Origin: Ectobius pallidus
Lineage: Eukaryota; Arthropoda; Insecta; Blattodea; Ectobiidae
Length of the DNA stretch: 64,000 nucleotides
NCBI GenBank assembly: GCA_964059195.1
Contig: CAXKWD010000003.1
Location: forward strand, 196,936,174 to 197,000,173
Reading direction: 5' to 3'
Part shown: piece by piece, positions 6,598 to 57,023 of the stretch
Position numbering within the stretch: the first letter of the stretch is position 1
Layout of the letters: each line of letters opens with the position of its first letter
Made by a program: the position numbers and the translations under genes
Notes under the pieces: generated by a model
What the model was told of the DNA's origin: nothing
Database searches by the model: none
The model's input: the letters and a program-made list of their open reading frames with translations, nothing else

Positions 6598-7584
6598 CTA
6601 ATATATAAAATCGAAAGTGTGTATGTATGTATGTATGTATGTATGTTTGTTCCTTATACAAATCTACATTTCTTTACCAATTTACACGACATTTTGCACA
6701 CATACCCAGTTAAGCCCGGGAAGTATAGCTGTCGACATTAAAATTCAAACAAAATACTCCTTCCCTTGAAAATTATATAATTTCTGAGAATTTTATACTG
6801 AAAAAATGAATTGCTGTTTAGTTCACATGGCAACAGTAAATTGTTTACTATGATTACATAGGGCCTTGGCAAGTATATAGCCTAATGCTTTAACGAATTA
6901 TGATTCCATCGATGTAATATATTGGCGAAAATAATGACTGAAAATTAAATCCACGAAAATAAAGCACAGTGTGATGTAGTCACGTAACTTTCTCTACCCT
7001 CGACATAAGAAATATTTACTCACTTCACATTTTGATGTAGAATAAGAGGGACAACTTAAGTGTGTGAGTATGCTATATCAAAAGTCTATAAATAATCCTT
7101 TCCGCTGATAAGTTATCCATACCTGTAGGCTTTGTGTTAGTTGAGAAATAGGGATGTTTATCATAGGCCCTAAGCATGGGATGGAACATTTTGAGTCCTA
7201 TGCTCGCAGTATATTATGTCCCGGGTTCTAGGGGAGGAAAGTATGAAAGTGATACTGCATTTCTCTTTTATTTCAGCTCCGAAACGATTGTATAGTAACA
7301 TGAGAATGAGAAATAAAATTTTCCGTCAAGTCAGTACAATCTTATGTAATTTGTGTTTCTTCTTATTTCAACCCCTCCCAAGCATGATGTGTAGAAGCAA
7401 CGGAATGCAGCATTCCACATCCTCTATGAGCCATAAAAAGCTATATCCAGCGTTTTCTGATGGAATAGTTTGAGTGTGATAAATCTTTTTCTTCATTTCA
7501 AGTTCTACATACATAAAGTCCTTCATAAGTTAATTTCAAATTAAAAAATACAAAGCCCGGGCGACGCCGGGCCTTTTCAGCTAG
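6598..7584 (+). mobile_element. Non-autonomous Helitron (family 1), copy 1
   Basis: Begins TCTAATATATAAAATCG and ends with a GC hairpin (GCCCGGGCGACGCCGGGC) followed by TTTTCAG and CTAG, with T as the next base. These are the diagnostic Helitron ends: 5' TC, 3' hairpin, CTRR, insertion before T. There are no TIRs or TSD. A (TATG)n run lies near the 5' end. No Rep/helicase is encoded. Related copies: 12374-13161, 15986-16832, 37589-39350. Confidence 0.75.
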
Positions 7585-42003: not shown

Positions 42004-42336
42004 CATAGGCGTACCGAGGGGGGTTTTTGGGGGTTTGAACCCCCCCCCCCCATTGATTAAAAAAAGGAAAATTGTATAATTTTTTTAAGTCTGCCCATAA
42101 ATTACTTAATACAAGTATAAAGCGTGGGAAGCTTAAAACTCGTTATTTTGCGTCTTAATTTTTTTAATTTTCCGGGAGAGGACCCCCGGAAGCTTAAAAC
42201 TCGTTATTTTGCATCTTAATTTTTAAAATTTTCCGGGGGAGAACCCTCGGACCCCCCTCTCCCTGGGGGGTATTCCATACCCCCCAGATGTTATAACCCC
42301 CCCCCATACAGTATGGTCGGCCTGGTTACGCCTATG
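42004..42336 (-). mobile_element. CATAGGCGTA-type hAT MITE with perfect 8-bp TSD
   Basis: 333 bp bounded by CATAGGCGTACC and GGTTACGCCTATG, flanked by CACGGTCC at 41996-42003 and 42337-42344. The interior contains long G and C runs (GGGGGTTTGAACCCCC) able to fold into strong hairpins. Its minus strand aligns with the two halves of the copy at 42650-42699 / 56810-57015. Confidence 0.8.
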
Positions 42337-42649
42337 CACGGTCCACGGTATTTACTTAATTTTTTGAATCAAGGACTTTTTCGAAATTTTATCGAACCGC
42401 TCAGAATTTGGGTTTTATAACTGAAATATTAAGGGGACTTTTCATGAAAACATTTTTTAAGATTTTGATTTTTGAAAAATTGGCTCTAACGATTTTAATA
42501 CAAATGTGAAATTAAAAACTCTTATCTGTGACTAATAAGATGGCTATATCCGTTTCTCTGAAAAAGTGACTTAGGGGGGCCTCGTATCCATTTTCAATTT
42601 TTCTAGATTATCTCCATTACAGTAGACGATACATGAAAACATACCACAG
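42337..42649. other. Non-coding repeat fragment
   Basis: Contains words of the dispersed block seen at 4.2 kb (GGCTCTAACGATTTTAATAC, TTTCTCTGAA). No gene. Confidence 0.4.
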
Positions 42650-42699
42650 CATAGGCGTAACCAGGCCGACCATATGGGGGGGTTATAACATTCGCGGGG

Positions 42700-43169
42700 A
42701 GTAGTGGTGTTTTCTGTGTAACCCCTGCGGTGGCGCACTGAATGCAACCCGCAATACAGGGGCCGCCACCGTGTATTGCAGGGGCAATACAAGGTGGCGG
42801 CGTAGGGGAAGGTGGCGCGTAGGGGAAGGTGGCGCGTAGGGGAAGGTGGTGCGTAGGGGAAGGTGGTGTCCTCAACTACCGGCCCCCCAGGTCAGCCAGT
42901 CCCCCACCCACTGCCCTTTGGTCACCTGGGTGCTAGCATGCTTATTGATCATAGCTCTGGATGCTAGCGCCACAACGGCCTAAGTGTTTAATTATTGGTA
43001 ATATTGTTAATATTGGTATTTATGAGCTTGCGCCCTTATTGAACATAGTTCTTTAATCCATCTGGGTGCTAGCGCCCTTTGCTCCGCCTGTGTGTGTAGA
43101 ACAAAGGCCTAAGTGTTTAATTAATGGTAATATTTGTGATATTATAATATTTGCATGTCTTAGCGGTGG
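42700..43169 (+). repeat. Maverick left terminal inverted repeat
   Basis: 470 bp matching the right TIR in reverse. The outer part carries four copies of a 17-bp tandem (GCGTAGGGGAAGGTGGC-like) at about 42800-42868. The inner part has an extra, partly duplicated block (two copies of GGCCTAAGTGTTTAATTA), which makes it longer than the right TIR. Confidence 0.8.
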
Positions 43170-43498
43170 TCCAGACGTGATGCAGCTGCGCGTACTAGAA
43201 TAGCCCGGCTCACCGCGCGGGAGGTCCCGCATGCACACATGCTGTCTCGCACGGCAGAGCCGCATCTATGCGTACCAGAATAACACAGTTCGTCACGCGT
43301 GGGGCCCAAGCGTACGCGTTGTACTCTAGCGTATGTCAATGTTGCAGTACATGTCATATAATATTATTGTGTTGTCCGGCAGATGTTATCCAACAGCCAC
43401 GCGTCTGAAAATAACCCAGCCTAGCGCAGCAGTGGCCCCCCGCTTGTATACCGACGCCGTACCTACGCGTGGTGACCGTGGTCCCTAGCGTGAGCCGA

Positions 43499-43536
43499 TA
43501 TAAATACACATGCTGCAGACGATTTCGCTCATTCAA
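43499..43536 (+). promoter_or_regulatory. Core promoter of the zinc-finger/PolB gene
   Basis: TATAAATA at 43499-43506 and an initiator TCATTC at 43529-43534 put the predicted start at A43531, 32 bp below the TATA box and 21 bp above the ATG. This is a textbook arthropod TATA+Inr arrangement and supports ATG 43552 over the upstream ATG at 43510, which would lie outside the transcript. Confidence 0.7.
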
Positions 43537-43551
43537 CGGATAGCAGCCGAC

Positions 43552-46500
43552 ATGGAAGGTACTACTACTGGATTCTTCAAGTGCTCAGAGTGCGATGCCA
43601 AGTATAGGCATAAACGAGACCTGAACCGGCACGTGAGGCAAAGGCATACACAAAGCCATTTCTCCTGTGTTTCGTGTGGGGCTTCATTTACCCGTCGCGA
43701 TGTATTGACCAGACATGTGCGGGAGGCACACTCTAACAGTCAACTAGTCTGTGTTAAATGTGGAAAAAGTTTCTCCTGTCAACGTTATCTAAACGACCAT
43801 TTGGAATCTACCCATAATCCAATGAATCCTAATGAAATGTACAGACAACGTGAAGCCAAGACACCGAGACCTACGTCAATAGTCATCGAACCCGGGTCAC
43901 CTGCAGCCGGGCCATCAACAGCCATTGAGCCAAGGACAGCGGTAGCGAGACCACAGACCAACCCATCGGTACTAAGCCAGCCTGATGTGTCCAATGAACC
44001 AAGTCCACGGACAGCCAGACAATCAGTGTTGAGAACAGCTTTGGGCGGCCAAGCCATTGATTACTCGGTACGTGTTATATATATTAATGTGTTATATATT
44101 AGTGTGTTACTTCCGAGACAACTCGCCTCATAAGTTTTTTTTTTGTTACAGCCTTTCGCCGTGCCAGATGCAAACACGCATCCCATTGCAGTATCATCTC
44201 AGCAAACTGCAGACGGTGGCCAAGGAGTCGCGCCCCATCACATGCCAGATGTTAACGTGCAGACACAAGGATCCATCTCATCGCATGCGGTGACAGATAT
44301 CGGCAGCCGTTATAATGTGGGGGGAGCTCTCACCGCTCACGGCAGCCAAGCAGTCTCGCAGTCAGTCAACAGACATGGGGCCGCTACTCAGTCTGATGTG
44401 AGTAGCTTACTACAATCACATGTTTTTTTACGCTAATGTTTACATGGTTTTTCTATATGTTATGCTAATGTATACATTGTATTAATTCTTACAGAATGAT
44501 TTTCGCAAAGTGGACTCAGCCTTCAGATCGAGAATCGCTCCATATGCAGCAACCAATATCCCGCAAGGGGACCTGGAGAGCGGCCTAGCAGCCTACAAAC
44601 CCAAGATGGAGGCACTGGTGAGGGACTCTATCCAACAATTTAAGTCTGTAAAATTCAATATTTTTGTGGAATGTGGTTTTGAGAACTTGGAAGGAAAATC
44701 CACTCTACGTAATTTCAAATCAAAAAACGAGGTAGCTGTTGTAACGACCAACCTATCAGAACTGTTAGATAAACAAATAGAGAAAATTCAACAGGAATAT
44801 CAAGACGTAGCCTTACGAGGGTCTGGGTTCATGTTCAAATCCATACATAAAATCGAATTACGCGTCAACCATTATAAACCTTTTACAGGTAGGAAATTCA
44901 TGCTCCTACCCGAACGTTTTAGGCATTCAAAATCTCTAGTGAACATTGACAATCATGACGATTATTGTTTCAAGTACTGCATCTTGGCGAAATTTATAGA
45001 GGTAGGTAATGACTTATGGGCTAGCTATCTCGGGAACCAAGAATTATCTGACAGATACGACTGGAGCTGTGTAAAATTCCCGGTAGCATTACAAGACATT
45101 GGTAAATTTTCTAAATTAAATAACATATCGATCAATGTGTTTGGTTTAGATGACAATGCGGAAGTATACCCAATCAAAATTGCTGATAAGGAGTTGGACG
45201 ACCATAGAGACTTGCTCTATGTCTGCGATGAAGTAAATTCACATTATGTCTTAATTTCTGATTTCAACGCATTCATTAGGCCTTTTGTCACATCGGACAA
45301 GCGTCAAGTCAAAGTATGCAAACGATGTTTTACGCACTTCCAGTCGTATAAAGGTGAGTCAGCCGACCAGAGACTTGAGGCTCATTTGGCTGTATGTAAT
45401 TCGTTCTCACCCGTCAGGTGTGAATTTCCTAAACGTCTGGAAGTAAGTTTCACTAAGCATGAGTATTCGCAGAAGATTAGGTTTGTGATCTATGCGGATT
45501 TTGAGTGCTTATTGGAGCCTATTGCCGGATGTCAAAATGAACCTACAAAATCCTGGACTCAAAAGTATCAAAAACATACACCTTTCAGTTACGCCTATTT
45601 TATTAAGGACTTGGAAGGCGAACATTCAAATCTGCGGCTATACAGAGGACCCGAGGCAGGAGCCCATTTTATGAGTTCTCTTGTAAAAGACGTAAAGTCC
45701 ATAGATGCCATTTTAAACTATGAAATAAAACCCATGATCCCTCTCACGGCAGAACAGAACAACCAGTATATGACCAGCACCATCTGCCATATCTGTAAAC
45801 AAGGTAACTTCACCGAAGAAAATTACAAAGTCCGTGACCACTGCCACGTGAGCGGTCGGTTCAGAGGTGCAGCACACAGAAACTGTAACCTAAATTATAG
45901 GAACCAGTCTTTTGTCCCTGTTGTGCTACACAACCTGTCCAACTATGACTCACACTTCATTGTGACAGAGTTAGGTTTTGACAAGAACCGTATCAATGCC
46001 ATTTGCAATACCCAGGAGAAATACGTGACATTTTCTAAATTTATTCCCTCCTCTTATTTGAAGCGGGGAGGTATGGAACTAAGATTTATAGATTCGTTTC
46101 GCTTCATGGCCAGTAGCCTGGAGAAGCTAGCGGACAATCTTCCCAAGCAGAAATTTATAGAAACCAGAAATTCGTTTGGTGACAAAACCGATTTGGTATG
46201 TCGAAAGGGAGTCTTCCCCTACGACTATGTGTCGTCCTACGAAGTTCTAGATGAGGCAAAATTACCGCCTAAAGAGGCGTTTTACAACAAACTCAGCAAT
46301 GCGGGTGTCTCAGATCGAGACTACTCTCATGCTGTTAATGTCTGGAATTCATTTTCGGTCAAGTCTTTAGGGGAATATTCAGACTTATATTTGAAATCTG
46401 ATGTACTTATTTTGACCGATGTGTTTGAGAATTTTAGGCAAATGTGCCATGATACCTATGGGTTAGATTGTCTCTACTATTCGACTGCTCCTGGATTCGC

Positions 46501-47935
46501 TTTTGCATCCATGTTAAAGTTCACAGAGGTAAAATTACAGCTGTTGAACGATATGGACATGATTCAGATGTTTGAACTTGGGATAAGAGGTGGTATTTGT
46601 CAGTGTGTAACGAGACACGCTGTGGCAAATATCCCTTGTTCCACCGACTACGATGCCTCAAAGTCGAGCTCTCACCTTTACTACGTCGACGCCAATAACC
46701 TATATGGTTACGCTATGTCTCAAGCGTTGCCTACTGGTAATTTTCGTTGGCTCGAGAAAGATGAGATAGCGTCTTTTGACGTCATGTCCATACCGACCAA
46801 TTCTAAATTGGGATATGTCCTTGAGGTAGACATTGAGTATCCGGATCACCTCCACGACGCTCATACTGATCTGCCCTTCTGTGCAGAAATGAAGTGTCCT
46901 CCGGGTAGTAAAAACAAAAAGCTTTTGACAACTCTTGAAACTAAACAAAATTATGTCATTCACTATACCGTGCTTAAACAGGCGTTGCAACACGGACTGA
47001 AATTGACAAAGATCCATAGGGTCATCAGTTTTGAGCAAAGCTGCTGGCTTAAACCGTATATTGAGTTCAATACGTCTAAACGGAGGGCTGCAGCCAACAA
47101 CTTTGAAAAAGACTTTTTTAAACTGATGAATAACGCAGTTTTTGGCAAGACAATGGAAAACGTGCGAAAGAGGATAGATTTTAGGCTGGTGTCTGATGAA
47201 AAGTCAATGTCTAAACTGATAGCTAAAAGCAGCTTTCAGGATAGAACCATCTATAACGAAAACCTTGTAGGTGTTCACCTTGCTAAGACTAAACTCGTTC
47301 TGGATAAAGCCATCTATGTCGGCATGTCCATTTTGGAAATTTCAAAAACAAGGATGTACGACTTTCACTACGACACCATGCGAAAGTATTTCGAAAACAA
47401 AATTAAGCTCACATATATGGATACTGATAGCTTCATATACAAGATCGAATCCAACAATCTAGACCGTGATTTGTTAAATTTGAGAGATGAACTGGATACT
47501 AGCGTCTACCCACCCGAACATCCCTTGTATTCATTGGAAAACAAAGGAGTGGTCGGTAAATTCAAGGACGAAGGTGCTGGTCATACTATAACTGAGTTTG
47601 TAGGCCTGCGAGCAAAAATGTACGCCATAAGGTTTAACGATATGAACATAAAGAAATTGAAAGGTATTAATAAATGTGTTGTAGAGAGAGAGCTCTCATT
47701 TGAAGATTATGTCGGTTGTCTTCAGAGCGGGCAATCGTCATTCTCGGTAAACAGGTCTATACGATCCTATAATCATAACGTATTTTCGATCGCCATGAAT
47801 AAAGTAACCTTAAGCGCTTCAGATGATAAGCGGCACATTTTACCTAATGGCGTAGATACTCTTGCTCACGGGCATTACAAAATCAGGGATGTTGATGTTG
47901 ATGAGGGACCCCCAGCTAAAAGATGTAAAGTGTAA
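43552..47935 (+). CDS. C2H2 zinc-finger / protein-primed family-B DNA polymerase, 3 exons
   Basis: Exons 43552-44067, 44152-44397 and 44495-47935; both introns are GT-AG and phase 0 (donors GTACGT and GTGAGT, acceptors TTGTTACAG and TTCTTACAG), giving about 1,400 codons with no stop. Exon 1 has three C2H2 fingers (FKCSEC, FSCVSC, LVCVKC, each ending H-x3/4-H), then a Pro/Ser/Thr linker through exon 2. Exon 3 has the exonuclease motifs DFE (about residue 588), NLSNYDSHF and YLKSD, and the polymerase motifs DANNLYGYAM (A), NNAVFGKTMEN (B) and YMDTDS (C, about residue 1230). Between Exo I and II sits a Cys/His endonuclease-VII-like module (ICHIC ... VRDHCHVSGRFRGAAH ... CN). The family replicates linear DNA from a terminal protein. 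All catalytic residues seen are intact, so the protein could be active. The start is set by the promoter and the good context GACATGG. Confidence 0.88.
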
Positions 47936-48150
47936 AAATGTATATAGTGTCAGAGTCTTGTATGTAAATAAAAATGTATTATGCTATATGTCTTGTGTGT
48001 GTAAATAAAAATGAAATATGCTATGTGTCTTGTGTGTCTTGTGTATGTTGTGTATTATGCTATGTGTTGTAAGGCAAAGGAAAGGAAAAAAAAATGAATT
48101 ATGCTGTATGTTGTAAGGTAAAGGAATGGAAATAAAAACACATGACTATA
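47936..48150 (+). terminator. Polyadenylation region with repeated AATAAA
   Basis: AATAAA at 47967-47972 lies 31 bp after the PolB stop, with GT-rich stretches downstream. The block TATGCTATGTGTCTTGTGTG-like plus AATAAAAATG is repeated, giving further AATAAA at about 48003 and 48130. The opposite gene ends at 48229, so the two converge. Its ATTAAA-type signal (reverse strand, about 48158) lies between them. Confidence 0.6.
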
Positions 48151-48228
48151 CTTGAGTCTTTAATGAAGTAAAAAAATACAAGTGTTCCTTCCTCCTCCTG
48201 CTCCACCACTCCACTGTTAAGACTCTGT

Positions 48229-48981
48229 TCATTCTATATAATTTCTATCCCTCAATTCCAATATGATTTCATGTATTTCCTTGTGGTGATGTAGTGTGGC
48301 AGCAGACGAGGACATGAGAAGCTTTAGTCTGTCAAGGAGCTGGTTGGGGTCGAAGTCTATTTTGTGATTCGCATGTAAGTCCTTCCACATGCCTCCACGG
48401 TGTGACAAAACCTCATCGGAGGAGTCCTCCTCTTCCGAAAATGAGTTTGAATATTGTTCCTCCTCTTCTTCTTCCAGAAATAATTTTTTATTAACATGAC
48501 ACGTATTGATGGGGTCAGCCTGCTGATGAGTGTTCGTATCCGAGAGAAGATATCGATTGGAGATGAATTTCTGTCTGTCTTGACAAATTGGGCACTTGGA
48601 TAAATAAAGAGAAATCATAGCCTTTGTAACGTTTGCAAATTTTCTGGATAGTTCATTATACATTTTATCGCGACCACCATGTCCTATTGCCGCGTGAGCG
48701 GTATCAATAACGTCGTATATGTCATCAACCGAAAGGTAATATTTTCTATCGTTTTTTGCAACAAGTTTCCTAATTCCTCCTATTTCTACCACATCAAATC
48801 TTTTCAATCTTCTTTTTTGTGTAGCCGTCTTCTTTTGTGATTCTTTAGCAGTATCTACCTCCCGCATGAGTGATAAGTAATTTTCCTTTGTTAGAACCTT
48901 AAAACGAGTAGATTTTTCACTCTCAGTTCTTAAAAGCTCCCCCACGAAACTCTCTCTCGCCTTTTTACAACTCTCATCCAT
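48229..48981 (-). CDS. Orphan integrase-type H2C2 zinc-binding protein
   Basis: 250 codons, open, ending 98 bp after convergent AATAAA signals. Residues ~1-80 are basic and helical (QKRRLKRFDVVEIGG). About 85-135 form an H2C2 zinc-binding fold: YYLSVDDIYDVIDTAHAAIG, HGGRDKMYNEL, and SKCPICQDRQ. This is the N-terminal domain of retroviral-type and Ginger-type integrases and of KRBA2-like host proteins. Where the DDE core should follow there is instead a linker, an acidic run (EEEEEEQ, SEEEDSSDE) and a helical tail. The catalytic core is thus missing, not mutated. It might bind DNA or the polymerase gene's products; it is unlikely to integrate by itself. It is convergent with the PolB gene, inside the same Maverick. 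Confidence 0.7.
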   Translation of the reverse strand: MDESCKKARESFVGELLRTESEKSTRFKVLTKENYLSLMREVDTAKESQKKTATQKRRLKRFDVVEIGGIRKLVAKNDRKYYLSVDDIYDVIDTAHAAIGHGGRDKMYNELSRKFANVTKAMISLYLSKCPICQDRQKFISNRYLLSDTNTHQQADPINTCHVNKKLFLEEEEEEQYSNSFSEEEDSSDEVLSHRGGMWKDLHANHKIDFDPNQLLDRLKLLMSSSAATLHHHKEIHEIILELRDRNYIE

Positions 48982-49026
48982 GATATCGTGAAACGTAGAA
49001 TGATACCCAGGGATGATGACTTTACT

Positions 49027-49325
49027 CTACGCCGGTCTATTCTGGACTGGTGTAAAACTTGTCTGGGCTCACTTATTTATAGGTAAAATTAATCTGGACC
49101 GGTTAATATGAGTCTGTAGCTGGTCCAGATCGATCTTGACTGGTCACTACTGTTTAACAGTTTCGCTACGCCGGTCTATTCTGGACTGGTGTAAAACTTG
49201 TCTGGGCTCACTTATTTATAGGTAAAATTAATCTGGACCGGTTAATATGAGTCTGTAGCCGGTCAATATCGATCTTGACTGGTCAATATCGATCTGGGGT
49301 TGGTTACTACTGATTAACAGTTTCG
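49027..49325 (-). promoter_or_regulatory. Tandemly duplicated promoter region with two TATA boxes
   Basis: Two ~140-160-bp units (49027-49165, 49166-49325) upstream of the H2C2 gene share CTACGCCGGTCTATTCTGGA and following sequence. Each carries TATAAATA on the minus strand (49074-49081 and 49213-49220). Repeated GACTGGTC / GGACCGGT words resemble binding-site clusters. The nearer TATA box is about 95 bp above the ATG. Confidence 0.55.
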
Positions 49326-52300
49326 AATGGGTCTAGGTCTCGGTCTTATGTATTTACCGTACCGTGCTAGAACTAACAAAAAAATATAATTTTTAATCAC
49401 ATCTTACACCTCACAACTCACTGACAGCTGGTAGGTCTAGGTCTCGCAAGACATCAAGAACTTCTGCGATGCGTAAAGGAGCACAGTCTTGGAGTGGTCT
49501 TGATATGGCAGTCATGATCTTGGATCTAAAGGGTTAGTTGATTTTTTTAGGTTTGCATCTTGTTATATTACCACAAACAATTCAGAGGTGGTTTTTGTAC
49601 ACCTCATGTTTCTGTGAAATTATATTGCACTCGATGAAGTATATAGCTATCGTTTTCCAACGGATGAACAATTTATACATGATGAAATGATACAAACAAA
49701 GTGGAGTGTGATGAATTTGCATGGCATTTGATGAAGGTTAAAAGATAGCTCCAATGGATATCATTAAATAAGAGCAATTTTTTTTGCATATTTCGCCATT
49801 TTCAGCATTTTTAGGTCATTTTTCAGCATTTTAGGTCATGTTTGAGTGGGGGTAGAGAGAAGCTTTCAGACAATAGACAACAGAATTAGTACTGTAGTGT
49901 GTTTTATATATTAAGCAATTCAGTAATAATGGTACATTTATTGGTCAATATTTGGGTCATTTTATGGTTTATGCCATAATGCCAAATGCCGCAGCTTTAG
50001 TACACATCCCATGCATCGTCAGATTGCATCCAAAGTTAACCGTGAACGCTGTAATCCTATAACTTCAGCGGGTTTGCGGCTTTGTGTAATCAACTCTAAG
50101 AAATTAATGGGGACACGGACAATGTTAAAAAGTTAGGAATTTTTCTCAGAATACATTAACTGTAGTTGATTGAAATTCTTACAGAACATTAGGGTTTTCA
50201 TATCTATGCTTTATTGTAAGAATAATTATTATTTTTTACAGTAGTCTATTTTTCATTATAAAAAGTCATACTAATCACTTAATATCTTCAACACTATATG
50301 GCTGCCTGAAAATTTCAGTTTTCTATGTTCAATAGTTTCTCTGGAAAAAAAAAAATATATAGTATTGAGATATGGAGCTTTAAAGAAAGATATAGGCCTA
50401 TCAGTTCTACCATGGCTACCCAGTGTGTATGCTGAGTGATTTTTGTTATAGATGGAATTATTTTGTGGATATTTCGAGTAATGTTAAAATATTTAATCAA
50501 TATTTTACAATGCTAGGGTGTTTAAAAAGCGGAAGAATGTTACCACAATTAGACCAGAACCAGAAATGTATGTAAACACTAATGTAGGCGCTCTGAACAA
50601 AAATTAGTTTATTCAAAGGTGATTGTGAAATATTGTGGAATATTTTTGCAGTGGTCACGATATATATATAATCGATATAACACCGGGAATGCATCCTTCA
50701 CGAAGCCTAGAAACAGAAAAAAAGTATATTTTTGACCCATATTCAACCTTCTGGGTCCCCTTAAATGTATGTGGTTCAGCGCTGTAAAGAATCTTCGTGT
50801 AAGATGAAGATTGCAATGTCTCGCGTTGAATTGTATAAGACTAGGAGATGATAAAAAATTAAGAGTATAATAATTATTTATTAACACTTGCACGCGAATC
50901 ATTCATAAACTAAGCCATGAAACAGCTAGAGTATATTCCACGACATGAAAGCGAAAACTATATCAGATTCGAATATGCAGTTCCAAAGAACCTGTGAACA
51001 CTGTTTCTCAGCTGTTTATTGACATGAATATGATGTGAATTTTATTTTACCAATTCAGCGTAATTTTAAGAAATCATATAATATTTCAAGGGAAGGAATG
51101 GTTTGCTTGGATTATTATTATCAGCGATATTTCAAGAGATAAAACCATCAATATTGGTGCCCTCGGCTTAGCCTGCCATTATTCATTGACTCCAGGATTG
51201 TTAAGAAAATTACACTGGTAGATTATTAAAAAATGATTGTGGTTCAGTAAAAATAAAATTAGAATATTTGTTCATTTCACTTAGGCCTTATATAATAAAG
51301 AAACGGTTTTACTATTCGTCATGAAAGCTTACAATGCGAGAGACGAACATCGCCGAGTATACCCGATGTCTCACGAAGTGAGGGTCGTTGAATTGTTGCT
51401 GACCCATCAATGCCTCACATTGGTAGATTTATGTGTAAACACAATTTAAAGTCGATTTGATATACTTCAGCCGTCTAGCCATCATGTTGGCTGGATACTC
51501 CTCCAACCATAGCCTACTGTGATTATGGCAAAAACATACAGTAAATAGCTGGACCTAGGGATGCGATCGCACCTCTCCGGTCGGGGACAAGGGATTTTTC
51601 CTCGCCTGTGAGAGGAAATGTAGGCCCAGGCTGTCATTATTATCCTCACCTTGTTCAGAGTGAGTGCATCGGAGGTGGCCCCGGCATTGTACTGAACAGT
51701 AATGCCCTTGTCTGGTGATAATCCCTCTCCCGACAGGTCGCGGACCCGTAAGGCCCGGGGCGGCTTGGGTTTTTTAAATCATAAAAGTGAGAGGTAAAAA
51801 AAAAAATAGAAATTAATCAGGAATTTATCTTTCTGCACAACGCAAATTGCCTTGCAGACAGAGAATATCTTTCAACTTACAAGCTTTCTGTTACATAATG
51901 ACAGGAAAAATTAAAATAATCAGTAGTAAAACCATTAAGGAAACCTATATGAACTAACTGCTAACTATAAGAAAAGAGTTAAGAATAGGAATTTTATATA
52001 ATTCTCATAATTTTATATTTATTAAGTCTGCATGAAATCATGCAAAGCCACCTGTCTAGTTTTTTAAAAAAATGATGATGTCCCTTAGAGGCCAAAGATT
52101 TTTGAAATCCTTTCTGGCAACATTCCTAGGCTGTATGGTTTTTTTGAGAAGACTGTGAACAGTCAGTGGAGAAAACTGTTAGTATGGATGGTGTGGGGAA
52201 GTTATATTTAAAGCCTGCTCTTTGATTCCATATGTATGCCGTGACAACTGTTACAGTGACGTCATACCGCTGTGTCTTAATGAAACTGCATGTAGTCTGG

Positions 52301-52806
52301 TGCGAGAATTTAACAAAAAAATAACACAGTCACATATGTAAGGCAAATTTCATCTTAATTCTCGTATAAGCTTTGAAAAACCTACTGCTATGATATAATC
52401 ATACGCATCGTGTGGCTATTCACAGCAATACATTGCGATCAATCAATACGCATTAGGCATATCTTTTTGTGTGGATCTCTCGTTTATAATGTCAAGGCAC
52501 AAAGAAATTTTCAATCTACACCGAAGAGGATTATTATGGTCAAACGTTGTTCAATTTAACTCACTATACAGGGGTATTCTGAGGCGAATCTGAGGTCGCT
52601 TTTACCTATCTAATCGTGGTATGTAATTCGTGTGATTTAGGTGTTAATAAATAACTATAATTATCGCGGGCGAAGCCGTGGCTAAATGCGTCACATGATC
52701 GTGAAACGCAGTGAATTTATGCATGTCTACATGTGTGGGGTAAAGGGAGCAGAGCGAACCATCTCGCTCACAATGACAATCTGTTATAATGTAATGCTTG
52801 CATAGA
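49326..52806. other. Maverick interior, no recognisable gene
   Basis: AT-rich with many short open stretches, none with a family signature. 50650-50740 matches part of 41840-41985. 51560-51770 is a GC-richer block (GGTCGGGGACAAGGG ... GGCCCGGGGCGGC) of unknown origin. GCGGGCGAAGCCGTGGCTAA at about 52666 looks like a Helitron 3' end. The expected capsid, ATPase and protease genes are not seen. Confidence 0.45.
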
Positions 52807-53377
52807 TAGGGCTCGGACTTTTAGGTGCTTATAAAACTGAAAATATATATTTTTATGTGGTTAAAAAGGCGAAAATATGAAAATTTACAGAAGTACTCAT
52901 CTAGTCAGCAAGCGTAGAACTGTTGCAGTAGATCTTAAAGCTGTGACGATTTTCACGGAGCAGAGAAAAATGTCCGTTCAACATTGCAGGATGTTAATCT
53001 TGCATATTTGTAAAACATAGTATGACTGACACTCAGATGTTCCATCTGCTCTCTACGCTGTTACCCATTAAAATATCTGAAATTTTGGCAACACTAGTAA
53101 CCCTTCATTCTTATTTAGGTATGATAGGAATTTTTCTCTAATTTTGATTGCTTTGTTAAGTTTGTTTGATTCTGTCAACAATTGTTTTGTTCTTTCCAAC
53201 TGTGAGAGGAAACAGAAAGGTCTAATCAGCCCTGACTCAACATAACATCACAATGAAAATATGCCGCAATTTTACAAAAACAGTAAATATATATTTCTAT
53301 ACAAGATATGTGGTAGCTAGCTAAAATATTTATTCAAATAAAAAATATATGTATTTACCTAAAAAGTCTGAACCCTA
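52807..53377. mobile_element. Probable hAT-type MITE inside the Maverick
   Basis: TIRs TAGGGCTCGGACTTTTAGGT and (reversed) TAGGGTTCAGACTTTTTAGGT. The 8-bp flanks TGCATAGA / TACAGCCA agree poorly, so the TSD has decayed or the ends are slightly off. Non-coding interior. Confidence 0.6.
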
Positions 53378-54079
53378 TACAGCCATTGTCTCATTGATCG
53401 TTAAATCACAACCTTTATGAAATTGAATGAGGTAAAATGATCTGCCATTTAGAATGAAAGTTCCTGAGATGCAGATGTTGTTTATGACAGACAGAATGTT
53501 GACTGCTTAATGATAAAAAATAGACTCGTGCCAACGTTGTGAGACTGAGTGCAATGGTCGCTTGATCACAACAGCTGCAAGCAGATATGAATGGAATACC
53601 CCCCATCCCCAAGCTTTCAGCAGTTAATGTTATGATAAACACCAAATTATTATTTTAAATGGAGTATGACTTATTCAGCGTGGAAGAATCCTCACAGCCT
53701 CCTGTAAAAAAAATTGAGAGAACATGCTTTTGGACTATTGTTGGAATTAAGGGAGTAAGGGTTTTTGGATGAGGATATAACCGACCTTTTACATTCATAC
53801 AAAAATGTGAGAGCTCGATTTTTAAATAATTTTTACAAAAGTTTTCTTTATACTAAATATTTATTTAAAAAATTGCAAAACTTTAAGGAAAAAAAATTAG
53901 TAATGCTCTATAGTTGTAGCCTCATCTATTTCACGTATCCACCGCTGAACCCTCGCCGCTCGAAACAGATCCTCTCTGTTCTGAAACATATGAAAAAAAC
54001 AAAAACGTATAAGAATGGTGTAATAACGTGGATTGAAGTCGAATGAAATTTAACTGTATGACTATACGAATGTTATAAT
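53378..54079. other. Maverick interior, nothing recognised
   Basis: AT-rich; an open stretch at 53765-54046 (+) is lysine/leucine-rich with no known motif. Confidence 0.4.
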
Positions 54080-54771
54080 CAGGGGCTGGATTCTGATGAC
54101 CTAAAATTGATTGAAAAAGACCTGTAAAATGACCGTAAAATGACTTAATAATTATAAAAAATTACCTAAAACTGATATTTTATTTATAAAAATTATTATA
54201 CACTCAAAGCTATAGACTAGTTTGTGCATAATTGTAAAAACTGTAATGTTGTGAATGTTCTTCTCTCACGGAAATTTATACTGGCACTGAGGCAAAATTC
54301 GGCACTATCTATTGAGGTCTGCCGGATTATATTGTTTTTTTATTGAGGGCAAACAGTAGTTTGCACTCTCAGATCCAAGCAGGTGGCAGACTCTGGTGTC
54401 AAGTCAATCTAATAACAATAGTAATATAATACAAAATTTTGACGTTTCTTTGATTCTCACTTCCGACTGAGACATGACAACACTTTTCCTTCTTGCATTA
54501 AACAGACAACACTTCAAAGACACCACCACTAGCGACGAAAAAAAAGTTAATACACACAATGTAAATGCATGAAAATGACTAAATAAGGAAGCAAATGACA
54601 CGAAAATGACAAAATAATGACCTAAAATTGAAATAAATGCCCTAAAAATGGCATAAAATGGCAAAAAACGACCAAATAAAAATGCATTTCTATAATCTAG
54701 AGGCCATTATTTTTCTACAAGTTGATGCAGCATCAATAAAAAGATGACATGTCATTAGAATCCGGGCCCTG
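54080..54771. mobile_element. hAT-type MITE with perfect 8-bp TSD
   Basis: Ends CAGGGGCTGGATTCTGATGA and (reversed) CAGGGCCCGGATTCTAATGA; TSD GTTATAAT at 54072-54079 and 54772-54779. Same family as 14914-15470. Inserted in the Maverick, hence younger than it. Confidence 0.85.
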
Positions 54772-54886
54772 GTTATAATTCACATGGGATGAAATCGCTT
54801 AAAATTTAACTGTATGGTGATTGAACATTTATGACTATACACGAATGTTATAATTCACTGACTATAATAAAAAATGAAGTACATAC

Positions 54887-55198
54887 CTTTCGAAATTGTT
54901 CCAAGAAAACTCCGCATTCCCTCGTGCAGGTCCGCCCCCAGGCCTCGATGGAGGGCGGCAGAGGGCTGGGGTGTGTACAAATGGTTACGTGCTGGTCCCC
55001 GTTGCACGTTTCGAGGTGATGTTTGGCGGGGTGTGACTCCTCGTCGTCCAGGTGATCCTTGTCCCCTTTGCCGCATGCATGGACACGTACAAACCCTTCC
55101 CGGCGTTGGTCAGCAGTGGATCTGATTTCATACATTTCAGGGTGCTGGTGGAGCCGCACCTCGAAGCCTAACATGTCGATTACTCTTATGTTCTCCAT
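54887..55198 (-). CDS. Candidate exon, unknown protein
   Basis: 104 codons from an ATG at 55198, GC-richer than its surroundings and ending at a consensus 5' splice site, CGAAAG|GTATGT. The sequence starts MENIRVIDMLGFEVRLHQHP and contains scattered Cys and His (VHACGKGDKDH, HLETCNGDQH) but no finger or domain I can name. If real it would be a first exon of a Maverick-borne gene running leftwards, its next exon possibly destroyed by the MITE at 54080-54771. The opposite strand is also open here, which weakens the case. Confidence 0.35.
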
Positions 55199-56446
55199 TG
55201 TTGAACTAGCAAAGAAATAAGCTCGTGCCTTGGATAAATCTGCATTATATATGGAATCAGTTTACCACACGCTAAGATTCGCACAAATAACCACCAGCTG
55301 CATCATTTACGCTTGCGAATAATGTTTTGACTTAACAGGTGGGGGGTATGCCATCAACACATGCAGAACGATACCACAGGCCATCGCGTATCTCACAGCT
55401 TCATCATCTAGGCCTGATAACAAAAAAATGGACACGTATTTAAGCTTTCAAACATTTCATCTGTATCGATCGTATTCTCCACCGACGCCTAAGTAGCGAG
55501 GTTTATCCTTCCATTGCTTGAGACGTTGACGGCCAGACATGAAGTGGGGGAAAATATTATTATTTAAAATACATATCAGATGCAGGATTCGAACCTGAGG
55601 TGTGGATAACGAGCCGACTTGGGCTGAATATTATATCACATGTGTGGCAACAGCGATACATGTGTTGAGCCCTGGTGTATACCTGAGTATACCACGGTTA
55701 TACCGAAAATCATTGTCATTGTTTCTCCCAGATTATAATAGCAATGTTATAATTTAGGATACGGCAATGCATGGGTCACACATTATTCACAGATTACTGA
55801 GTAAGGATAAATTAGACTAGTTTCTATTGGTTGTTGATGAGGTCATAATTATGTCATTATTTTCCGTTGCTTAACGCAAGATTTAAGCTTTTATTGAATT
55901 AAGTCAATTCAGTAATATTTATGCAAATAATAGACGATTCGCATACATGAAAGGCATATAGTACTTTCTTATGTTATTTTGTTAAACCCGAGGTTTGGGT
56001 GTGGCAAGGATGGTTATATAAACCCCGACCGAAACAGGCCTCAGTCTCTTTACTTTCCATGACGTCGCAAGACGTCGGAAGCCATGAAGATGAGGATGGT
56101 TGTGAAGAACTCCGTAAAATGCGAGTTCAAGGAAACATATTCACTTATTGACTTTTAGAATAAATATGTAAATTAATTTACGAGTGTTTTCTTACGAGAG
56201 TATAAGATCCTGATCAATCCGATTAATAGTTTTATTTAAGTTAAATAATTAAAAGAGTAAAATTATAATTGTTGATGTTAGAAATAATATTTATTTCAGA
56301 AACGAATGAATGGTAATTAAATAAGAAGATAACGAGCGTAGCAACATGCAACATGTGTTCCGAAATAACACATCTGGCGCATGACCTCACGTTGTGTTTA
56401 TTTCTGTATGCGGTGTTGAGACGCAAAGCTGCGGTCCTGTCTGCAT
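55199..56446. other. Maverick interior; includes a candidate solo LTR or mini-gene
   Basis: Mostly AT-rich non-coding. 55570-55590 has a reversed box B (GGATTCGAACC), perhaps a SINE head. The part around 56015-56164 is described separately. Confidence 0.45.
56015..56164 (+). promoter_or_regulatory. Compact TATA-Inr-ORF-AATAAA unit
   Basis: TATATAAA at 56015, initiator TCAGTC at 56041 (start A about 56043, 28 bp down), ATG 56059 opening 30 codons to TGA 56149, and AATAAA at 56159-56164. A promoter and a poly(A) signal ~115 bp apart on one strand is the layout of an LTR (U3-R), so a solo LTR is the simplest reading, but I could not find TG/CA ends with a TSD. The alternative is a tiny transcript of the Maverick. 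Confidence 0.45.
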
Positions 56447-56809
56447 CCACCCTAAGACATGCAAATATTATAATATCACAAATATTTACCAATAGTTAGG
56501 CCGTTGTTCTACACTGGTGGCGCAAAGGCTGCTTGCAACCAGATTGTCTTAATAGCTATGATCATTGAGGATGCAAGCACCCCAGGTGGCCAAAGGGCAG
56601 TGGTCAGCTGCTCCTCCGAGTGGACAGCGCGCCACCTACGCGCCACCTTCCCCTACGCGCCACCTTCCCCTACGCGCCACCTTCCCCTACGCGCCACCTT
56701 CCCCTACGCCGCCACCTTGTATTGCCCCTGCAATACACGGTGGCGGCCCCTGTATTGCGGGTTGCATTCAGTGCGCCACCGCAGGGGTTACACAGAAAAC
56801 ACCACTACT
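56447..56809 (-). repeat. Maverick right terminal inverted repeat
   Basis: 363 bp, reverse complement of 42700-43169 apart from an internal length difference. It carries the same 17-bp tandem (CGCCACCTTCCCCTACG-like, about four copies). The open frames here (Pro/Ala/Thr-rich) are products of the tandem and not genes. Confidence 0.8.
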
Positions 56810-57023
56810 GCGGGGTCTGGGAAAGAGGGGTCCGGGGGTCCTCCCCCGGAAAATTTTGAAAATTAAGACACAAATTAACGAGTTTTAAGCTTCCCACGCT
56901 TTATACTTGTATTAAGTAATTTATGGGCAGACTTAAAAAATTCTAAAATTTTCCTTTTTTTAATCAATGGGGGGGGGGGTTCAAACCCCCAAACCCCCCC
57001 TTCGGTACGCCTATGCACCACAG

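Follow-up and report, generated by a model that had tools for sequence, protein, structure and literature searches.

How can a transposon that carries a polymerase gene, without the catalytic core of an integrase, still be copied and inserted? This question is raised by an element, here called E2, at positions 42700-56809 of a window of 64,000 nucleotides (the whole stretch of DNA analysed; Ectobius pallidus, assembly GCA_964059195.1, contig CAXKWD010000003.1, positions 196,936,174 to 197,000,173 of the forward strand). E2 is a Polinton-type element nested in a split hAT-type miniature inverted-repeat transposable element (MITE), and it belongs to a young, non-autonomous, Polinton-derived family in which some copies are full-size palindromes. 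We consider it likely that the family would be copied as free linear DNA by its own family B DNA polymerase (PolB), with palindromes arising by snap-back, and inserted by an integrase supplied in trans.

Both junctions of E2 were read directly, with GCGGGG followed by AGTAGTGG on the left and CCACTACT followed by GCGGGG on the right (in a longer reading, GCGGGG, AGTAGTGGTG ... CACCACTACT, GCGGGG). The termini are (AGT)2...(ACT)2, and the 6-bp target-site duplication (TSD) and Polinton-type ends proposed in a first-pass annotation of this DNA were thereby borne out. The terminal inverted repeats (TIRs) have a core of 167 bp with 99.4% identity, and patchy similarity reaches ~477 bp on the left and ~371 bp on the right; the 0.36-0.47 kb initially given for them holds good if taken as their outermost reach.

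The first 101 bp of the TIR were searched against the 2.12-Gb genome and the best 40 of 175 candidates were scored, so that genome copy counts are lower bounds. The matches listed were 41, a 39-bp piece and 40 full-length matches, and the latter pair in plus and minus orientation into at least 20 elements, E2 included. Nineteen of the 20 span 13,346-16,068 bp (mean 14,185 bp, coefficient of variation 4.8%) and one, at C10:121135895-121163107, spans 27,213 bp. This unit is about twice the usual size, possibly a nested copy or a dimer, and has matching TIRs and the TSD ATGGCT. Perfect 6-bp TSDs and AGTAGT...ACTACT ends were found in all 15 TIR-paired elements read at both ends (E16-E20 lie outside this sample) and, at the outer ends, in six of six palindromic relatives described below (21/21 in total). 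The pairing of the TIRs in other copies and the recurrence of the 6-bp repeat as a TSD, on which the first-pass annotation had staked its reading, were thus both observed. Two copies, E8 (C11:19399009) and E9 (C3:141330025), differ at one position in 14.6 kb and occupy separate sites with different TSDs; the family has therefore moved very recently.

E3-E9 and E11, all read in both halves, have the same layout as E2, with broken frames in some of them. Fuller sister copies, which the first-pass annotation would have taken as support, were not present among the 11 elements read (E1-E11); the PF26634-type frame of E10 is longer, yet this copy lacks a recognisable PolB. The description of E2 as a reduced, virus-derived replicon stands as far as reduction is concerned, although this reduction is a trait of the family, common to E3-E9 and E11, and not of E2 alone. 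Because an integrase core was absent when tested, the combination of Polinton-type ends with no core of its own makes E2 a non-autonomous (deletion) derivative; the family is placed by its ends, TSD and polymerase and is not filed as a complete Polinton/Maverick.

Palindromes were found in two of the 11 elements read in both halves. E1 (C11:12935551-12951618; 16.1 kb) contains the PolB half twice, head to head, with arms 99.94% alike over 7,882 bp on either side of a 308-bp spacer at the 139-bp repeats. The 99.94%-alike stretch includes a 1.3-kb insertion, which has an 8-bp duplication in the arm examined; the copying of one arm from the other therefore postdates this insertion. The extra 1.3 kb was considered as the missing integrase core and rejected, as it gave no significant integrase or PF26634 match and is bordered by 8-bp repeats (AACATGAC) in the manner of a hAT-type insertion. 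E10 (C6:22971347-22984923) contains another half twice, 99.76% alike over 7,196 columns (centre counted twice), with arms of ~6.77 kb, a 31-nt loop at its centre and no recognisable PolB. A third kind, the Pa type, appeared when the genome was searched with the family PolB (best 40 of 3203 candidates scored), as mirrored PolB pairs with equal scores. Such pairs, spaced 7,207 or 7,209 bp apart, occur at six loci, one locus having two of them. These six sites (Pa-Pf) have six different perfect TSDs (TATTAT, GCAGAT, ATCACT, CAGAAC, AATTTA, and CAAGGA); five of the elements are 13,972-13,974 bp long, and the remaining one is a composite of 27,969 bp. The ends of Pa are 99.8% alike over 942 bp, and its centre has no spacer and no mismatch in 300 bp per side. 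Relative to E2, the sequence of Pa runs to 49720, jumps at a short microhomology to the inverted stretch 49720-49777 (a 58-bp flip) and folds back at CATG. The composite (C12:40918557-40946525) consists of two Pa-type palindromes in one unit with CAAGGA as outer TSD, the first being cut ~808 bp before its right end; after the cut follow ~300 bp of unassigned sequence and ~420 bp 100% identical to the left flank of the C5 copy; either flanking host DNA travelled with the element or the assembly is wrong at this point.

Mirrored pairs, counted by eye, made up 8 of the 32 PolB-bearing copies of the family as against none of 75 other PolB copies in the genome (best of 3203 and 1704 candidates, respectively), a contrast for which the Fisher value of 3e-5 is indicative only, the rows being best-scoring ones related by descent. 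Truncated integrase frames in mirrored arrangement flank two further centres, C7:99165067 (palindromic at 90% over 382 columns) and C9:143008930 (94% over 390), which have a 15-bp central core (CCATATGAACTATGG) in common with E10 although the surroundings differ. A centre hairpin of the E10 type was looked for in the window and not found. The 20-bp flanks of the eight palindromes (E1, E10, and Pa-Pf) are in no case mirror images (2-9 of 20 positions) and carry the 6-bp TSD. Flanks that are unmirrored yet form a TSD are most simply explained if the fold-back took place on a free linear DNA with the TIRs as its ends, the product being integrated afterwards.

The two ends of each copy were also alike. 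In a gapped comparison of the first 100 bp, both TIRs were identical in 18 of 21 elements and differed once in the other three; the mean number of differences was 0.19 within a copy (16 elements, Pa type counted once) vs. 8.8 between copies (120 pairs, 13 of them identical), a contrast of about forty-fold. At positions ~7-21 from the element ends, a few alternative blocks are variously combined among copies, and both ends of one copy agree (E1-E15, Pa-Pf), which we read as end sequence that may have been shuffled among copies. Along the left half, tracts of 0 to 20% divergence follow one another, and between E2 and E11 the synonymous divergence (dS) is 0.39 for PolB and only 0.0125 for the frame of 265 amino acids (aa). 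In the right half, bins within the gene for a small cysteine-rich protein diverged by 14-40% per 100 bp from E3, E4, E8, and E11, whereas other bins in 54000-56400 diverged by 0-8%; for E11 the bin at the gene edge (54800) stood at 4%, and divergence at 53900 was again 31-34%. Because divergence is high in the gene bins and low in neighbouring ones, the cysteine-rich allele of E2 has probably been swapped in, within a mosaic. Compared with E3, this gene gave a ratio of nonsynonymous to synonymous divergence (dN/dS) of 0.27 with a dS of 1.1, and E10 carries a 38% relative of the protein adjoining its TIR.

The PolB frame, which the first-pass annotation had called open, is open over 1,149 aa. 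It is apparently joined to a zinc-finger frame by two conserved introns, giving a predicted protein of ~1,400 aa. In an alignment of 18 sequences, the exonuclease and polymerase motifs were invariant and nine sequences matched DNA_pol_B_2; the PolB frame of E2 (P0001) had an Endonuclease VII match of 6e-5, just under the cut-off. An AlphaFold model with a predicted local distance difference test score of 84 had phi29 DNA polymerase in all of the top nine PDB matches (E 1.5e-20 to 1.2e-17), ahead of other family B polymerases from 9e-10 on, and the modelled fold is phi29-like. Catalytic motifs and phi29 polymerase fold are thus both present, as in a protein-primed PolB, with priming itself putative. 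The closest relative is 63% identical, the named ones near the top being insect proteins (Periplaneta, Macrosteles, Ladona), and a phage collection searched with P0001 gave no match. Values of dN/dS were 0.10-0.25 (seven open copies; 20/21 pairs that differ), with dS up to 0.42, and to judge from these ratios PolB is under purifying selection; the frame is broken or shortened in E3, E5, and E7. A second PolB lineage in the genome (best 75 of 1704 candidates scored) has many single frames of 1,376-1,515 aa, and these are candidate autonomous relatives.

Frames were compared with Pfam in two scans, one of 9 of the 18 frames of at least 90 aa (the remaining nine are located in the TIRs, in the flank, or opposite scanned frames on the other strand) and one of 56 frames of at least 45 aa in 49250-56640. 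The catalytic core of integrases (rve) is absent from E2 in these scans: similarity of the fusion frame P0002 to rve integrases is confined to their N-terminal part (57% to P0123, a protein with an rve match), and none of the 56 right-half frames contains the core. No match to a packaging ATPase or an adenovirus-type protease was obtained in either scan (these covered open frames, and genes that are spliced or in decay could escape), nor to a jelly-roll capsid, for which Pfam may have no suitable model. In line with the first-pass annotation, the Pfam scans thus recognised no capsid, ATPase, or protease; the right half is nevertheless not devoid of genes, as it carries that of the cysteine-rich protein. 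Elsewhere in the genome, core-spanning integrase frames of 433-667 aa are present, as well as 17 open frames of 172-281 aa that match only the N-terminal part of integrase. The latter, among which three mirrored pairs occur, suggest that truncated integrase may be a gene type of long standing. A 402-aa PF26634-type frame was found in E10, and in the relative P0163 one protein contains both PF08398, presumably the parvovirus VP1/PLA2-like domain, and PF26634. Because P0163 joins the two, there is a hint of a link between the PF26634 protein and the CAP protein of insect Mavericks.

These data can be accommodated by a scheme in which the element would be copied as free linear DNA with the TIRs as its ends, by protein-primed strand displacement with its own PolB. 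Such displacement would also explain the conserved AGTAGT end through jumping-back, as described in PMC8097293. Now and then, a short hairpin or microhomology around mid-element would let the growing strand turn back and copy itself to the end, yielding a full-size palindrome, and template switches between co-resident copies would yield mosaic genes and matched TIRs. The linear DNA would then be inserted, with a 6-bp duplication, by an integrase acting in trans, as suggested by the core missing in E2 and the core-spanning frames elsewhere in the genome; the most likely donors would be genes of relatives in the same genome that retained the core.

Alternatively, E2 might be an ordinary decayed Polinton in a MITE, the palindromes being uninformative artefacts of assembly or sequencing. 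False palindromes can come from reads with a missed adapter, and the broken PolB frames of E3, E5, and E7, as well as a C12 composite that could be an assembly error, would fit; this is nevertheless very unlikely, given a PolB under purifying selection, six Pa-type loci with unique flanks, matching TSDs and those two spacings only, TSDs on both sides of E1 and E10, and imperfect, diverged palindromes at the C7 and C9 centres, which a read artefact would not yield. The palindromes could instead have formed in the chromosome, if a broken end folded back at short inverted repeats or if inverted copies recombined, as for the palindrome of Tetrahymena ribosomal DNA (rDNA), without any free linear element. 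The 15-bp hairpin core common to E10, C7, and C9 resembles the palindrome-seeding inverted repeats described in PMC5182062, and such an origin could still hold for founders whose descendants later transposed. We regard it as unlikely, as host flanks should then be mirrored too, and 8/8 palindromes are unmirrored with a 6-bp TSD. Chromosomal gene conversion among dispersed copies, in place of replication, could account for matched TIRs and mosaic genes: conversion among repeats is generally common, divergence changes in tracts, and conversion between the two ends of one copy could still have acted. It should, however, homogenise the TIRs of different elements as well, and the differences between copies (8.8 per 100 bp vs. 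0.19 within) make this account distinctly unlikely.

Several points weigh against copying as free linear DNA with insertion in trans. The free linear DNA, the transcript, and the protein are predicted from sequence alone, no terminal protein was recognised, and the integrase is only probably supplied in trans. P0001 had no DNA_pol_B_2 match in Pfam at E≤1, and sequence searches of PDB with PolB gave no polymerase, so that the fold alone finds one. Independent palindrome events may number only two or three, because the E10 centre is common to two other palindromes and descent from one is possible; once formed, palindromes might multiply by ordinary transposition. Pb-Pe were read for 401 bp at each end and for mirrored PolB positions only, the mid-arms of Pa lie outside the reading, and C6:104549400, the midpoint of a mirrored pair, was rejected as a palindrome centre because it is not symmetric. 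Both the selection on PolB and the low TIR differences within copies could derive in part from autonomous ancestors. As to the fusion of integrase N-terminus and PF26634 protein, it may be functional, whether as a regulator or as a protein that binds the ends in place of another, rather than a defect. Its frame is open in 6/7 other copies and 17 genome frames have the same N-terminal part only, but the family members diverge too little in it (dS≤0.025) for selection to be shown; we find a working fusion quite possible, if doubtful on balance. Even more tentative, and in our view rather unlikely, is a satellite mode of life, in which a capsid-less, integrase-less family would replicate as free linear DNA with its own PolB, form left-type and right-type full-size palindromes like defective virus genomes, and owe its ~14-kb size to autonomous relatives in the same genome, whose proteins would package or integrate it. 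That packaging holds the size is a possibility; E1 (16.1 kb) and two units of 27-28 kb are exceptions to it.

Several known systems can be compared with the family. Vertebrate Maverick/Polinton elements have, according to PMC8097293, the (AGT)2//(ACT)2 end motif, perfect 6-bp TSDs, TIRs, a protein-primed PolB, and low size variation. Intact ones are described there as ~17 kb long and free of introns; among their seven or eight conserved genes are those for integrase, ATPase, protease, and capsid proteins. The E2 family shares end motif, TSD, TIRs, PolB, and low size variation, but has ~14 kb, predicted introns, four recognised genes, no integrase core, and palindromic forms. For a Maverick of Spodoptera frugiperda (cells), PMC5803895 reports a PolB that includes a Recombination endonuclease VII domain; PY is replaced by a parvovirus-VP1/PLA2-like CAP, and ATPase, integrase core, and protease are reported as well. 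The Endonuclease VII-type PolB is shared with E2; the ATPase, integrase core, CAP, and protease are points of difference. Adenoviruses in culture give rise to symmetric (palindromic) recombinants of full size, with the same end twice, in the course of protein-primed linear replication; the palindromes of the E2 family differ in being integrated, flanked by TSDs, and multiplied in a genome. Foldback/Galileo transposons (PMC3573991) have large inverted repeats, as the palindromic copies have. Their transposase is of P-element type, and they are not known to carry a PolB or to form whole-element palindromes of the present kind. The Tetrahymena rDNA palindrome is likewise large and seeded by short inverted repeats but, according to PMC5182062, it is a programmed chromosome event with telomeres and without transposon ends or TSD.

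The free linear, protein-primed life of Polintons has so far, in our reading, been argued mainly from gene content, and among the leading matches of the literature searched (subscription papers mostly outside) none described Polintons that exist or spread as palindromes of the entire element. Palindromes that are full-size, flanked by TSDs, and symmetric only as far as the TIRs would be a genomic record of the free linear intermediate, and long reads could then put the question to the test. The family itself is a virus-like element minus integrase core and recognisable capsid genes, still mobile and with its polymerase still under selection, and it offers named loci: the near-identical pair E8/E9, the palindromes, and the swapped gene cassette.

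Table 1. Features of E2 and its surroundings (positions in the window).
Feature	Position	Strand	Remarks
Intact sister MITE, inverted	42004..42336	-	TSD CACGGTCC on both sides
Interrupted hAT-type MITE, left part	42650..42699	+	TSD TACCACAG at 42642-42649
6-bp TSD GCGGGG, left copy	42694..42699	+	Read directly
Whole Polinton-derived element E2	42700..56809	.	14,110 bp; ends, TIR, TSD; 19 further TIR-paired genome copies
Left TIR core	42700..42866	+	17-bp tandem units inside; patchy similarity on to ~43176
Predicted exon 1, C2H2 zinc fingers	43504..44067	+	Pfam zf-C2H2 3.7e-11; donor GT at 44068
Predicted intron 1, phase 0, 84 bp	44068..44151	+	Splice sites unchanged in 9/9 other PolB-bearing elements examined
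Predicted exon 2	44152..44397	+	Surrounding 100-aa frame open in 7/7 other copies
Predicted intron 2, phase 0, 97 bp	44398..44494	+	Splice sites likewise unchanged, 9/9
Predicted exon 3, protein-primed-type PolB and Endonuclease VII-like domain	44495..47935	+	Frame open from 44486
Fusion frame P0002, 265 aa	48229..49026	-	Integrase N-terminal H2C2 part without rve core, then C-terminus of PF26634-type protein
~139-bp repeat, two copies	49022..49288	+	Homologous region contains the centre of palindrome E1
Pa pivot stretch (element 7021-7078)	49720..49777	+	Inverted in Pa; landmark taken from the sister copy, not a feature of E2 itself
Fourth gene, small cysteine-rich protein, 137-aa frame	54851..55261	-	Open in 7/7 other elements at 58-60% identity
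Right TIR core	56643..56809	-	Patchy similarity from ~56439
6-bp TSD GCGGGG, right copy	56810..56815	+	Read directly
Interrupted hAT-type MITE, right part	56816..57015	+	TSD CACCACAG at 57016-57023, 7/8 matching

Searches of E2 for tRNA and Rfam RNA gave no match. The MITE into which E2 is inserted has the ends CATAGGCGTA/TACGCCTATG, and we take it to be of hAT type from the length of its TSD and its end motif. When its two flanks were rejoined by script and compared with the inverted sister, the one sister copy seen, they agreed in three stretches (93% of 187, 89% of 76, and 83% of 63 columns). The proposal that the flanks rejoin into one such element with an intact sister nearby consequently held; its own 8-bp TSD, perfect in the sister (CACGGTCC, 8/8), proved to match at only 7/8 positions in the host (TACCACAG/CACCACAG). 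The sister contains a 61-bp tandem duplication at 42127-42248, and the interrupted host MITE is without it.

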